64,000 nucleotides of DNA from Paludisphaera mucosa (lineage in GTDB: Bacteria > Planctomycetota > Planctomycetia > Isosphaerales > Isosphaeraceae): the NCBI RefSeq assembly GCF_029589435.1, contig NZ_JARRAG010000002.1, forward strand, positions 3,782,001 to 3,846,000, in the 5' to 3' direction. Every line of letters starts with the position of its first letter. The stretch's first letter is position 1. The notes under the pieces are model-generated. The model had not been told where the DNA came from. It did not search any database and saw nothing but the letters and a program-made list of their open reading frames with translations. This document shows positions 33,841-39,197 of the stretch, piece after piece. Made by a program: the position numbers and the translations under genes.

Positions 33841-36690
33841 TCACCCGGCCGCGGCGCGGTCCGCTTCCTCGCGGAGCGACCTGGCCTCGGGGTGTTCGGG
33901 GTCGGCCTTGAGCACCTCGTCGAGCGTGGCCCTGGCCTCATCCTTGCGGCCCAGGGCGAGCTGGGCGCGGGCCAACTTGACCTTGATGTCGGCGGTCTTC
34001 TTGGGCTTCAGTCCCAGCGCGACGTCGTATTCCGTCACGGCCTCGGCGTACTTCTTGCCGGCGGCGAGGGCGTCGGCCAACAGGACGTGCGAGCCCGGGT
34101 TGTAGACGTCGACGTACAGGCATTCCCGGCCCCACTTCTCGGCCGCGATCGGGTCCTTGGCGGCCAGCCAGCGCTCGGCCAGGGTGGTGCGGACGGCGAG
34201 GTTGTCGGCGTCGTTCTCGGCGATCTGGGCCATGTCGGCGAGGAACGCGTCGGAACGCTTCTGGCGGAGGTGGACGCGCGCCAGGTTGGCGATCCACTTG
34301 GTGTGCTGGGGGTCGCCCTTGCGCGCCGTCTCGTAGAGCCGCTCGGCCTCGTCGAGCCGGCCCGCGTTGAGGTACAGCTCGGCGAGCTGGTCGACCACCC
34401 GTTCGTCGGGGTGCTCGGCGTCGAGGGCCGGCTCCAGCAGGGCGAGGGCCGCGTCGTCGTCGCCGATCGAACGCAGGAGCCGGGCCTTGACGTAGCTGGC
34501 GAGCGGGTGGTTCGGCTTGAGCTTGAGCGCCTTGTCGGCGAGCGGCCGGGCCGCCTTGAGGTCGCGGCGGGCGAACTGCTCGTACGCCACGCGGGCGTTC
34601 AAATCGGGGTCGTCGGGCTTGGCCTTGAGATCGCGTTCGAGCTGCGAGAACTTGACCGGCGCCTCGGAATCGACTCGGGTCTTGATCGTCTTGACGATCT
34701 CGTCGAGATATTCCAGGTACGCCTTCTCGAAGTCCGCCTTGTCGACGTGGAAGCATTCCTTGATAGCCAGGTCGGTCGTCAAACCGCGGCGGTAGGCGGC
34801 GAGCATCTTGATCTGGGCGTCGGGGCCGAACCGCTTGGCCATGTAGCGGGCGTAGAGTTGGGCCTGGCAATAGGCCATCTGGCGGTCGTCGGCCTCGTCG
34901 GGGCGGATGAAGCCGAGGTTGATCGTATCCAGGTTGAGCAGCTTCTTGCGGGCCGGAACGCGTTCCAGCAGCAGCTTGTTCCACTCCTGGGGCCGGGGGG
35001 ACTGCTCGCTCTCGACGGCGAGGGCCTCGGTGTACCAGTGGGGGATGTTGAACTCGGTCTCCTGCAGGGTCACGACGTGGGTGAACTCGTGCTTGATGAC
35101 CCGGGCCCAGTTGTAGGGCTTGTTGGTCGACCGGGGGCTCGCCATCGCCACGACCTTGCCGGTGCACGCGCCGACGGTGGGGATGAACGGCAGGGCGACG
35201 GTCCGGCCGCTGAACCACTGGTGGTCCTTCATGATCTCGATCTTGGTCCGGCTCGGCGGCGTATAACCGAACATCGCGGTCAGCTCGGGCATGACCGATT
35301 CCAGGTACTCCGACATGTACTTCGCCAGCAGCTCGTCCTGGCCGGGGACGTACGTGGTGATGAAGTGCTCCGTGTCCACGGCCTTGTAGCTGCTCATGTG
35401 CTTGAGCACGCGGATCATGTTGTCGGCGCGGACGTTGAACGGGTCGGCGGCGAAGGCGGCGTTGAACAGGCTCGAAGCCTCGTCCTCCCGGCCGATCTGC
35501 ATGTAGAGCATCCCCAGGCCGATCGGGACGTCGGCGCGGCCGGGGTCGGCCTCGGCGGCGAGCAGGAACGCGCGCTCGGCCGTGAAGTACTTGCGGCGAT
35601 CGGCCAGGCGCTCGGCGAGCGCGGCGTAGAAGGTCGCGGGCCGGGGGTTGTTCGAGACCGCGGTCAGCTCGGCCGCCGCGGCCCCCGCCGGGTCGACCAG
35701 CAGCCGGCACGACGCGGCGAGACGGGCCAGCCCGTCCTCGTCGCGGGGGTTCGCGGCGACGGCCTTCTTGGCCGCCTCCAGCGCGTCCAGGAACCGTTCG
35801 TCGGAGATGTTCAGGTCGGCGATCAGGACGTGCGCGGGACCGTAGTTCGGGTTGACCTTCAGGGCGCGCTCGGCCTTCGCGCGACCGGCGGCCAGGCGAT
35901 AACCCTGCAGGTCGGCCTGGCCGAGAGTCACCAGCACCTCGGGGGCGAGCGGGTTGAGCTGCGAGGCCCGCGCCAGCTCCTTGGTGGCGGCCCGTTCGTT
36001 GTAGCCGGACAGGAACAGCCGGCCTTCGAGCCACGGGGCCTTCCAGCAGGTCGGGTCGGCCTTGAGCGCCCCTTCGTAGATCTCGTTGATGACGTCGTTG
36101 AGCGCGGCGGCCAACTCCTCGCCCCGCGCCGAGGCCCGGTAGTAACGCTCGGCGGCCTGGCCGACCACGACCAGCGCCTCGGCGTCCTTGACGAAGGCCT
36201 CGCGGTTCGCGTTATACCGGTCGACGAACCACTTGCAGGCGGCGACGGCCTTCTCCAGGTCGCCGCGGGCCTCGAGCAGGCGGACGGCGACCCAGCGCGC
36301 CTGGAGGTCGTCGGCGTCGATCGCCAGCGCCCTGCGCACGGCCTCGTCGGCGGCCTCCCAACGGCCCCGGCCGAAGTGCAGGTCGGCCAGCCGCGCGGGG
36401 ATCGCGGCCGATTTGGGGTCCTTGGCCTCGATCGGCTCAAGGATCGCGACCGCGGCGTCGGCCTCGCCCTGGGCGGCCTTGGCCTCGGCCTTGCCGAGGG
36501 CGACGGTCCGCTCCAGCGCGGGGGAGAGCCCGTCGGGCGTCTTGCGGGCCGCCTCGGCGAGGGCGTCGTACGCCTCCTCGGCCTCGGCGTACCGCCCTCC
36601 CGCCATGAGCCGCCTGGCCCCGTCCGCATCGACCGCCCCGCCCGCCTCGGCGACCAGCGCGGCCAGCAAGATGAACGTTCCATAACCCAT
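33841..36690 (-). CDS. TPR protein with a gluzincin-type metallopeptidase domain
   Basis: 949 residues. Short signal sequence (MGYGTFILLAALVAEAGGA), then TPR repeats (about 20-420), a peptidase_MA-like gluzincin domain with HEFTH (about residue 532) and a downstream Glu in WYTEALA (about 552), and a second block of TPR repeats to the C-terminus. The HExxH plus Glu arrangement supports zinc peptidase activity, probably in the periplasm. GGAGGG lies 8 bases before the start. It is upstream of the glycoside hydrolase on the same strand, so both may serve breakdown of glycoprotein or polysaccharide material. Divergent from the cobalamin riboswitch. Confidence 0.88.
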   Translation of the reverse strand: MGYGTFILLAALVAEAGGAVDADGARRLMAGGRYAEAEEAYDALAEAARKTPDGLSPALERTVALGKAEAKAAQGEADAAVAILEPIEAKDPKSAAIPARLADLHFGRGRWEAADEAVRRALAIDADDLQARWVAVRLLEARGDLEKAVAACKWFVDRYNANREAFVKDAEALVVVGQAAERYYRASARGEELAAALNDVINEIYEGALKADPTCWKAPWLEGRLFLSGYNERAATKELARASQLNPLAPEVLVTLGQADLQGYRLAAGRAKAERALKVNPNYGPAHVLIADLNISDERFLDALEAAKKAVAANPRDEDGLARLAASCRLLVDPAGAAAAELTAVSNNPRPATFYAALAERLADRRKYFTAERAFLLAAEADPGRADVPIGLGMLYMQIGREDEASSLFNAAFAADPFNVRADNMIRVLKHMSSYKAVDTEHFITTYVPGQDELLAKYMSEYLESVMPELTAMFGYTPPSRTKIEIMKDHQWFSGRTVALPFIPTVGACTGKVVAMASPRSTNKPYNWARVIKHEFTHVVTLQETEFNIPHWYTEALAVESEQSPRPQEWNKLLLERVPARKKLLNLDTINLGFIRPDEADDRQMAYCQAQLYARYMAKRFGPDAQIKMLAAYRRGLTTDLAIKECFHVDKADFEKAYLEYLDEIVKTIKTRVDSEAPVKFSQLERDLKAKPDDPDLNARVAYEQFARRDLKAARPLADKALKLKPNHPLASYVKARLLRSIGDDDAALALLEPALDAEHPDERVVDQLAELYLNAGRLDEAERLYETARKGDPQHTKWIANLARVHLRQKRSDAFLADMAQIAENDADNLAVRTTLAERWLAAKDPIAAEKWGRECLYVDVYNPGSHVLLADALAAGKKYAEAVTEYDVALGLKPKKTADIKVKLARAQLALGRKDEARATLDEVLKADPEHPEARSLREEADRAAAG

Positions 36691-36830
36691 GGCAGATCCC
36701 TCCTCTGAGTCGTTGCCTTCACGTTACCAGAAGAACGTCGGAGATGGCACCATCTCTCGGGGGCGAGGTCGGCGTTCGCGGGGCCTCGGGCTTGCGTGAC
36801 CGAGGGGGGCCCGGGTACATTCCGGCCAAT

Positions 36831-36998
36831 CCGATGGGCGTTCAGCACCGAACCGCTGAACAGGAAGCCGGTGAGAATCCGGCGCGGGACCGCCGCTGTA
36901 AGCGAGGAGGTCCCAGGACGACATGCCACTGCGGGCCTCGGCCCGCGGGAAGGCGTCCGGGGGCCGTCCGACTCGCGAGCCAGAATACGGCCCATCGG
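36831..36998 (+). promoter_or_regulatory. Cobalamin (B12) riboswitch aptamer
   Basis: A class with the complete conserved core: GGAAGCCGGTGAGAATCCGG (36863-36882), ACCGCCGCTGTAAGC, GCCACTGCGGG (36925-36935), GGGAAGGCG (36947-36955) and GAGCCAGAATACGG (36977-36990). A 9-bp closing P1 stem pairs 36831-36839 with 36990-36998. It is oriented toward the PEP-CTERM gene at 37392, 393 bases downstream. Family knowledge: it binds adenosyl- or other cobalamins and usually turns off expression. Confidence 0.95.
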
Positions 36999-37391
36999 GC
37001 ACCCGATCGATGCTTCGGCCTCAAGCATCCGGGGGAAGGCGTCCCGATGCGCTGCGCGCAGAGGCCCCCGCCTTTTCCTTCCGCGAGGCCGTCCCCCAGG
37101 GCCCCGGAATGGCTTCCTTCTTGAGCGCCTCACCGCCTTCCCATCGCGATCGACCCCGGCCTCGATCCGTCGTCCCCTCGCGTGGCCTCCACGGCCGTCG
37201 CGCGGGTCGCGGACCGGCCACGCGCCGATCGCGGCGGAGGCCGAAGACGCCCTGATCGAGGCCTTCCGGACGCCCCGGGTGACGTGCGCCGAGACCCGGA
37301 CCCGCCCCGTCGCGACTGCGGCGAGACGCGGGATTGGGGAGCGTGCGCGCTCAGGCGTCCGCACAGGTTCGTTTTACGAAAGGGAATCTTG
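36999..37391 (+). promoter_or_regulatory. Leader between the B12 aptamer and the PEP-CTERM gene
   Basis: No gene is supported here. Right after the aptamer, GATGCTT (37009-37015) can pair with AAGCATC (37023-37029), while GCATC (37025-37029) can pair instead with GATGC (37046-37050) around CGGG/CCCG. The two hairpins exclude each other and may be the expression platform. The remaining ~340 bases are GC-rich with no motif I recognise. Confidence 0.45.
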
Positions 37392-38258
37392 ATGAGTCTC
37401 GCGACGTTTCTTCCGTTAAAGCGTTTCGGAATCGCTCTGTCGGCTCTCGGCCTCACCTGGGGCGTTTCGCCGGCCCGCGCCGGCTTCGACCCGCAGGTGG
37501 GTCAGTCCGGCTCTCGGGGAATCGCGGCGTCGAGCCCGCTCTTCCAGGGCTGGGCGTCGTCCGCGGTCGACTTCGACCGCGGCCCGCAGAACATCGCCAA
37601 CCCCGGCGGACCGCTGGCGACCGTCGGCAAGGCCGAGGACGCGCTCGGGTCGCCGTCGAGCGGCCTCGTCTCGCTGGGCGACGGCGGGTCCATCACGCTG
37701 GGCTTCGACGCGCCGATCTCGGACGGCGCGGGGGCCGATTTCGCGGTCTTCGAGAACGGCTTCCTCGCCTCGGCGGGGAGCTTCCTGGCCTACCTGGAGC
37801 TGGCGTTCGTCGAGGTCTCGACCGACGGCGTGAACTTCTTCCGGTTCGACGCGACCTCGCTGACCCAGACGGCCGCGCAAGTCGGCGGCTTCGGGATGCT
37901 CGACGCCCGCGACCTCAACAACCTCGCCGGGAAATACGTCGCCGGCTACGGGACGGGCTTCGACCTGGCGGAGTTGGCCGGAGTTTCGCCTTTGCTGGAC
38001 GTCCACAACGTGACTTTCGTCCGGATCATCGACGTCGTCGGCTCGATCGACCCGGCGCACGGCCGTTACGACGCGCACGGGCACCTGGTCAACGACCCCT
38101 ACGCGACCCCCTTCGGGTCGAGCGGCTTCGACCTGACCGGCGTGGGCGTGATCCACTTTGCAACCCAGGCCGTGCCGGAGCCGTCGAGCTTGGCGCTCGG
38201 CGGACTCGGCCTGCTGTTCGCGACGGCGGTCGTCCGATGCCGCCGATTCGTCGCATAA
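37392..38258 (+). CDS. PEP-CTERM protein controlled by a cobalamin riboswitch
   Basis: 288 residues. Signal peptide (cleavage near PARAG), an all-beta mature domain and a C-terminal PEP-CTERM signal: VPEPSS, a hydrophobic stretch (LALGGLGLLFATAVV) and RCRR. The central segments GADFAVFENGF, AYLELAFVEVSTDGVNFFRF and NVTFVRIIDVVG form repeated beta strands and suggest a small extracellular binding or carbohydrate-associated module. Its regulation by cobalamin suggests it helps capture or use corrinoids at the cell surface; this is inference. No btuB, btuCDF or other cobalamin transport gene lies in the window. Confidence 0.82.
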   Translation: MSLATFLPLKRFGIALSALGLTWGVSPARAGFDPQVGQSGSRGIAASSPLFQGWASSAVDFDRGPQNIANPGGPLATVGKAEDALGSPSSGLVSLGDGGSITLGFDAPISDGAGADFAVFENGFLASAGSFLAYLELAFVEVSTDGVNFFRFDATSLTQTAAQVGGFGMLDARDLNNLAGKYVAGYGTGFDLAELAGVSPLLDVHNVTFVRIIDVVGSIDPAHGRYDAHGHLVNDPYATPFGSSGFDLTGVGVIHFATQAVPEPSSLALGGLGLLFATAVVRCRRFVA

Positions 38259-38295: not shown

Positions 38296-38733
38296 TCAGG
38301 CTTCCGACGCGGCGGTCTCTTCGGCTTCCTCGAGGTCTTCGGCGTAGAAGTCGAAGAACTCCTGGCCGGCGAAGGAGTCGGCCATGGCCTTGCGCACGGT
38401 CTTGAGCTGGCCGGCGAACTTGATGTATTCGCGGACCAGGCGGTCGCGGCGATCTTCGGGCATCTTGAGGATGTCGGCGTAGTACCGGCGGCCGCGCCGT
38501 CGGTCCCGAAAGCTCCAGAGCCGCTTGACCCGCATCCCGAACTCGGCGTCGTCGTACTCCAGCATCCGAGCGTACTGGCGGGCCTTCATCTTCTTGGCGA
38601 ACTGGATCAGCTCGACCTCGGACTCGTAGCCGCCCATCGCCTCGATCCAGTCGACGATCTCTTCGGTGACCAGGTTCGGCCCCTTCTCCTCGCAAAGCTC
38701 CTTCAGGCTGGCGACGATCTCGGCTGGCCCCAT
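38296..38733 (-). CDS. Conserved small cytosolic protein of unknown function
   Basis: 145 residues from the ATG at 38733, chosen because GGGGAGGG lies 6 bases upstream; the frame extends to 38814. Helix-rich, charged sequence: IVASLKELCEEKGPNLVTEEIVDWIEAMGG, VKRLWSFRDRRRGRRYYADI and an acidic C-terminus (EDLEEAEETAASEA). No signal, no Cys motif. The pattern fits a soluble adaptor or nucleic-acid-associated protein but I recognise no family. Confidence 0.72.
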   Translation of the reverse strand: MGPAEIVASLKELCEEKGPNLVTEEIVDWIEAMGGYESEVELIQFAKKMKARQYARMLEYDDAEFGMRVKRLWSFRDRRRGRRYYADILKMPEDRRDRLVREYIKFAGQLKTVRKAMADSFAGQEFFDFYAEDLEEAEETAASEA

Positions 38734-39197
38734 GCGTAACCCTCCCCGAACGGGCGGACGGAATGTGCGCATCTTTCCGACATCCCTCATTCCGTCGATT
38801 CTAGGCGCGCGCATGTCACCTGTCGATGGACTTCCGTGCAGATTGTCAGATGTTTCTTCAAGCCGGACCGCGGGGAAGGCGGCAAGGTTTTCGGGACCGC
38901 TCCAGGTTTCCGTTTAGGGGCTTTACTCGGCCTTGGCGAGTGTTTTCCGCGTGGTCCCCTTGAGCTGGGGCTCGGCCAGGTTGATGGCCTGGGTGCGACC
39001 CTCGCGTCAATCTCGGCATCGGTCGCCCCCTCGGTAGCTGGATGTTGCAGAAAGCACCTCGGTTCACGCCGTTCGGGACAATCTGCAGGTATACCCGCAC
39101 ATGCACTCTGAGGCGGCGGGCCCCTGGCCCGCGGGGGCACTGATGTATAGAATCAACCAGTGAACGGAAACCCATCCAACCTCGTCGATCCGGACTC
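38734..39197. other. 464-base gap with an 11-bp inverted repeat
   Basis: No supported gene. TGCAGATTGTC (38837-38847) and GACAATCTGCA (39077-39087) are an 11-bp inverted repeat 229 bases apart. Base composition is less GC-rich than the neighbours. A short open frame (38836-39111) on the plus strand has no motif. TAGAAT at 39148-39153 may be the -10 of the cytochrome gene. Confidence 0.45.
39148..39153 (+). promoter_or_regulatory. Possible -10 box (TAGAAT)
   Basis: TAGAAT within GATGTATAGAATC, 44 bases before the cytochrome start at 39198. No -35 is evident. Confidence 0.35.

Follow-up and report, generated by a model that had tools for sequence, protein, structure and literature searches.

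Results

A cobalamin riboswitch stands in front of a single gene

The window, by which we mean the whole stretch of 64,000 nucleotides from Paludisphaera mucosa that was analysed, yields only two Rfam matches with cmscan. One of them is a cobalamin riboswitch aptamer, which is followed on the same strand by the gene for a protein of 288 amino acids. The locus contains the following features:

36818-37010, + strand: cobalamin riboswitch aptamer, RF00174 (cmscan, 77.1 bits, E 3e-17)
37011-37391, + strand: leader between aptamer and start codon (sequence)
37392-38258, + strand: gene for the BtuH-like, putative PEP-CTERM surface protein P0001, 288 aa (translation)
37392-37481, + strand: signal-peptide-like N-terminus, cleavage predicted after ARA at residue 30 (inferred by reading the sequence)
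37482-38162, + strand: BtuH-like (discoidin/CBM32-type) domain, residues 31 to about 257 (AlphaFold2, structure and profile matches)
37743-37763, + strand: conserved motif AVFENGF (alignment with the 7biz sequence)
38169-38255, + strand: PEP-CTERM sorting signal, comprising VPEPSS, a hydrophobic stretch and RCRR (PF07589)

The aptamer match spans the full model (positions 1-189; gathering score 31.5) and its core is intact. The 9-bp P1 helix, read off the sequence, is formed by 36831-36839 (CCGATGGGC) and 36990-36998 (GCCCATCGG). A preliminary description, made from the sequence alone, had claimed a cobalamin riboswitch with a full core and this P1, followed by a gene for a beta-rich PEP-CTERM protein with a FAVFENGF-type strand. 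Both claims held, the latter by virtue of the PF07589 match and of the strand itself, which occupies residues 117-124. Its statement that the window holds no genes for cobalamin uptake, synthesis or isozymes rests on that first reading alone, without an independent screen of the whole window.

About 390 nt separate the aptamer from the ATG at 37392, which has a plausible ribosome-binding site (AAAGGGA). A hairpin (GATGCTT-CGGCCTC-AAGCATC) lies close to the 5' start of the leader, and the RNA fold of the leader is unremarkable (z -1.57). Promoter and terminator scans of the + strand between 36690 and 37450 recognised neither a typical sigma-70 promoter nor an intrinsic terminator, so that the expression platform remains undefined. 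Because the genes on either side (33841-36690 and 38296-38814) both lie on the - strand, the riboswitch unit apparently consists of this single gene.

The PEP-CTERM match covers residues 260-285 (E 1.2e-5, 25.6 bits against a cut-off of 20.7) and was the only one in a Pfam scan of the protein at E up to 10; the main domain belongs to no family in Pfam or NCBIfam. The requirements of a lipoprotein signal are not met, the cleavage site being without a Cys, and the anchor is the PEP-CTERM signal instead. A single-sequence phmmer search against the PDB gave noise only, and a search for paralogues in the organism's own genome gave nothing beyond PEP-CTERM tails and short, weak matches. Two candidate identities were rejected: membership in DUF4465 (PF14717), for which there was no match at E up to 10, and identity with the LIC_13355 lipoproteins (NF033170), for which the score fell far below the curated cut-off.

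The predicted fold matches the B12-binding domain of BtuH

An AlphaFold2 model based on an alignment of 55 homologues reached a pLDDT of 95.8 and a pTM of 0.92. Foldseek placed two structures at the top of the PDB, 8blw_B (BtuG1 including its BtuH domain; 1.9e-4) and 7biz (BtuH2). With VIA-align, 7biz_A was the best of 985 PDB chains (Z 12.5, rmsd 3.3 over 162 residues) and the BtuH domain in 8blw_B the second (Z 11.6 over 173), followed by many CBM32/F5/8C and generic discoidin chains at Z 7.7-9.1, with a maximum of 9.1. The model thus predicts the fold of the C-terminal, B12-binding domain of BtuH.

At the level of sequence, the likeness of the protein to BtuH is marginal. The family profile found the BtuH part of 8blw_B as its top hit among PDB sequences, at an insignificant E of 0.11, and hhalign of the family against a BtuH profile gave a probability of 95.6 with only about 50 columns aligned. 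A bridge is provided by distant planctomycete members, which were found by the family profile and match the BtuH profile at E 7e-25; the bridging Bacteroidales sequences are securely BtuH (E 8e-81 to 8blw_B).

Which parts of the BtuH2 binding site are retained? Contacting residues were taken from the published structure (PMC8941943) and located in the 7biz sequence, where an offset of 100 puts Asn399, Phe401, His476, Tyr510, Trp511, Trp577 and Leu578 all on the expected amino acid. Asn399-x-Phe401 of BtuH2, which contact the nucleotide loop of B12, correspond in the alignment to Asn122-x-Phe124 within the FENGF motif. The first position is Asn in 25 of 25 family rows, and in essentially all 128 family members, and the second is Phe in 20 of 25. 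At the corrin contacts His476, Tyr510, Trp511 and Trp577, every family row in the sequence alignment shows either a gap or a different residue, and the loop that carries Tyr510 and Trp511 is missing from the family; the mapping of Trp577 and Leu578 is unreliable because of an insertion at this place. We infer that the nucleotide-loop side of the site is retained and that the corrin side must differ if binding occurs. Since the corrin-ring loop is absent and no binding data exist, B12 binding itself is only an inference.

A widespread family with different anchors

Homologues in close Isosphaeraceae are 64-82% identical to the 288-aa protein. When the protein itself served as query, a match came from 16 of the 45 genomes of the same order, in one case (G017) through the PEP-CTERM tail alone. 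Searching with the domain alignment, we found the family in 39 of 392 genomes sampled across the phylum. In the order to which a Bacteroidales locus belongs, 61 of 149 genomes were positive (E <= 0.01), a count that includes some distant BtuH-like matches. In a species-level collection at least 525 stretches matched, from Bacteroidota, Planctomycetota, Verrucomicrobiota and Armatimonadota-type genomes, and only the best 80 were kept for locus analysis. The preliminary description had not foreseen that the family is BtuH-like and widespread outside planctomycetes.

The anchor varies by phylum, being PEP-CTERM in planctomycetes and Verrucomicrobia and a T9SS-type tail in Bacteroidota. In the literature searched, the family is undescribed in planctomycetes or in connection with PEP-CTERM, and full-text searches for PEP-CTERM, cobalamin and riboswitch returned only unrelated work on c-di-GMP riboswitches upstream of PEP-CTERM genes. 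As a separate observation, long secreted proteins of rumen Bacteroidales (loci L050, L067, L084, L087, L096, L099 and L104) contain a BtuH-like domain; in L067 (8468-10891), the protein also carries a T9SS tail and matches DUF4430 (PF14478).

Riboswitches and B12-acquisition genes accompany the family

All 15 of the Isosphaeraceae homologues, the one in the window among them, are preceded on their own strand by a cobalamin riboswitch, as are 21 of 25 further planctomycete loci; two sets of more distant planctomycete homologues were likewise positive (8/8 and 5/5 with a riboswitch upstream). The four loci without one (L158, L163, L166 and L169) sit at contig ends, and because these contigs stop just upstream of the gene, 49 of 49 informative planctomycete homologues are positive. 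The distance between riboswitch and gene is up to about 5 kb. Among 80 other genomes, mostly Bacteroidota, 77 have a riboswitch match (only 124 riboswitches in total), and 71 of the 80 loci have a riboswitch no more than 8 kb ahead of the gene and in the same orientation. For 63 of these 71 it is confirmed by a B12-box motif within the locus sequence; the remaining eight are supported by the coordinate match alone. The preliminary description would have been refuted had most homologues been free of riboswitches and unconnected to corrinoid genes. What we observed was the reverse: 49/49 planctomycete and 63-71/80 other homologues are positive, and family genes adjoin, or are fused to, B12-acquisition genes.

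The usual set in Bacteroidota comprises, in variable order, a riboswitch, a DUF4465 or other secreted protein, the BtuH-like family, a TonB receptor and a BtuG-like protein. Among the neighbours, a BtuB-type TonB receptor (PF00593 and PF07715) was counted at 44 loci, a member of a BtuG-like cluster at 51 and a separate DUF4465 gene at 29. The BtuG-like label derives from clustering of the sequences and from the layout expected of such loci; the representative tested gave no Pfam match. Six genomes, from at least two phyla, encode the BtuH-like domain and DUF4465 as a fusion in one frame, and both domain orders occur. B12 binding by DUF4465 domains has been demonstrated in eight tested proteins, one of them from a planctomycete (PMC13398666).

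In planctomycetes, the family is accompanied by DUF4465 and by a DUF1559 prepilin (about 15 of 48 loci), and BtuCD-like genes were seen in some loci (for example L160). One genome (G043) has riboswitch, DUF1559, the BtuH-like family, DUF4465 and DUF6580 in a single row. The DUF6580 membrane protein downstream of DUF4465 comes after this B12 operon (L025/L152) and could be a transporter component.

More generally, the operons behind cobalamin riboswitches in planctomycetes, and in some Verrucomicrobia, repeatedly include a DUF1559 prepilin-like protein, recognised by PF07596 and an N-terminal methylation motif (L004/L182, at G000:C2:1934640-1934840, and L148, L150-L152, L154, L156, L157, L159, L160, L184-L186 and L188-L190). 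To our knowledge, no role of DUF1559 in B12 uptake has been described.

A B12 user without a TonB plug domain

The 8.2-Mb genome of P. mucosa contains five cobalamin riboswitches. Their targets are two DUF4465 proteins with PEP-CTERM, a btuCDF-like row (FecCD, ABC ATPase and Peripla_BP_2), a DUF1559 prepilin and the gene studied here. Three of the five lie within 142 kb (G000:C2 3677055-3819010), and the first gene after the btuCDF riboswitch encodes a DUF1289+DUF6925 protein (L002/L180, 8274-9164). The genome lacks CbiC, but the B12-binding domain PF02310 is matched seven times in it, with five matches above the cut-off, which identifies the organism as a B12 user without the CbiC step of de novo synthesis. 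Exosortase (PF09721) is encoded at two places (E 8e-66 and 1e-51).

No TonB plug domain was found in this genome or in the 14 other Isosphaeraceae genomes examined that carry the gene. Among other planctomycetes, 16 of 21 have one, the negatives being G401, G179, G322, G139 and G314. Since these Isosphaeraceae with B12-riboswitch surface genes lack the TonB plug, the route of B12 over their outer membrane is unexplained.

Discussion

We consider it likely, with a probability of roughly 0.75 and in the absence of binding or expression data, that the protein is a surface capture protein which Paludisphaera-type planctomycetes induce upon B12 starvation. How might such a system operate? At high intracellular levels, cobalamin would be bound by the RF00174 aptamer and the gene turned down. 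The aptamer, the gene behind it and the link of the family to riboswitches and uptake genes are shown here; repression by B12 is inferred, its direction being assumed by analogy with the riboswitch class. When cobalamin is scarce, synthesis and export of the protein would follow, and its PEP-CTERM signal and exosortase would fix it at the envelope, a location that is likewise inferred. There, the BtuH-like domain may bind and hold corrinoids. That the model predicts this fold is shown, and that the domain binds B12 is not more than an inference. We envision that the two riboswitch-controlled DUF4465 (BtuJ-type) PEP-CTERM proteins work alongside it; the fusions of the two domains in other genomes are a direct observation. 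The captured corrinoid would then be delivered to periplasmic BtuF and on to the BtuCD importer. The btuCDF-like genes, and the absence of the TonB plug and of CbiC, are established, and the hand-over itself is putative. The proposal of the preliminary description, a B12-repressed protein for corrinoid capture at the envelope, is thus largely supported, with binding, B12-responsive expression and repression still inferred.

It speaks against a capture function that the corrin contacts of BtuH2 are not conserved and that direct sequence likeness to BtuH is weak. The protein might instead be an adaptor or scaffold of B12 acquisition which does not bind corrinoids itself, and which recruits binders of the DUF4465 or BtuG type or aids the release of vesicles, a role that has been proposed for BtuL. 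The unconserved corrin-ring contacts would fit this alternative, as would the fusion of the family to true binders or its position next to them. Moreover, membership in a B12 locus does not guarantee B12 binding, which neither BtuL nor BtuK2 of B. theta showed (PMC12751083). Against it stand the nearest fold, which is a B12-binding BtuH domain ahead of generic discoidins, and the retained equivalents of Asn399 and Phe401, the Asn being almost invariant; we regard an adaptor as unlikely. Discoidin-type folds frequently bind sugars. The domain might be a CBM32/discoidin-like polysaccharide binder that ties B12 capture proteins, or cells, to extracellular polysaccharide and has come under B12 control through shared operons. 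The many CBM32/F5/8C chains among the structural matches speak for this, and an association of PEP-CTERM systems with exopolysaccharide has been described (Haft 2006, cited in PMC12530212). However, the BtuH structures lead by about 3 Z units, and because the gene in the window stands alone behind its own riboswitch, its B12 control is no by-product of an operon. We hold this explanation to be very improbable. Finally, a genuine riboswitch might no longer control the gene, or might be a decayed relic, and the unrecognised expression platform and the 390-nt leader would be compatible with such a coincidence; yet the pairing of family and riboswitch recurs across phyla and the aptamer core is intact, which all but rules it out.

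Capture by a B12-starvation-induced surface protein thus remains our preferred reading. A bolder version of it is conceivable, whereby Isosphaeraceae dispense with TonB-dependent receptors altogether and import B12 over the outer membrane by means of B12-repressed, PEP-CTERM-anchored BtuH-like and DUF4465 binders and a riboswitch-controlled DUF1559 pseudopilin, which feed BtuCDF. That DUF1559 might carry B12 over the outer membrane is no more than a guess, drawn from the order of the genes alone. The lack of a TonB plug in 15 of 15 Isosphaeraceae gene carriers exposes a gap, for which the recurrent DUF1559 prepilin is a concrete candidate. Beyond this lineage, our findings suggest a likely function for a large, secreted family without a Pfam entry that occurs in Bacteroidota, Planctomycetota, Verrucomicrobiota and others.

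Comparison with known systems

One point of comparison is the Leptospira LIC_13355 family of lipoproteins (NF033170), to which 44 of 55 family members show a weak but consistent match (best E 7e-8), with scores that stay far below the curated cut-off. LIC_13355 has been studied only as a candidate laminin- and plasminogen-binding adhesin (PMC11891782); possibly, it is a distant relative of B12-locus proteins. The surface lipoprotein BtuG shares with our family the proposed capture of B12 at the outer surface and the same Bacteroidota loci, but it is a seven-bladed beta-propeller, and none was found in the planctomycete loci examined. DUF4465/BtuJ proteins (PF14717; BtuJ1, 9FCT; D5EK51, 9HMU; the Mucisphaera protein 'Pan') are secreted, riboswitch-controlled and often adjoining or fused, whereas their augmented jelly roll differs from the discoidin-like BtuH fold, and by Pfam they are unrelated to the protein in the window.

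BtuH itself (B. thetaiotaomicron BtuH2, BT_1956, 7biz; the BtuG1 domain, 8blw) resembles the family in its place in riboswitch-controlled cobamide loci beside btuB and btuG and in being a secreted surface protein, a location that is inferred for the protein described here. It differs in being a lipoprotein, whereas the family is anchored by PEP-CTERM or T9SS. The family also has a conserved loop of its own (NDPxxTPFxSxGFDL) and lacks the corrin-contact loop, and the protein in the window has no PKD or propeller domain. If the capture reading is correct, BtuH-type B12 capture, which has been described in gut Bacteroidetes, would extend to soil bacteria that hold the protein by a different surface anchor.
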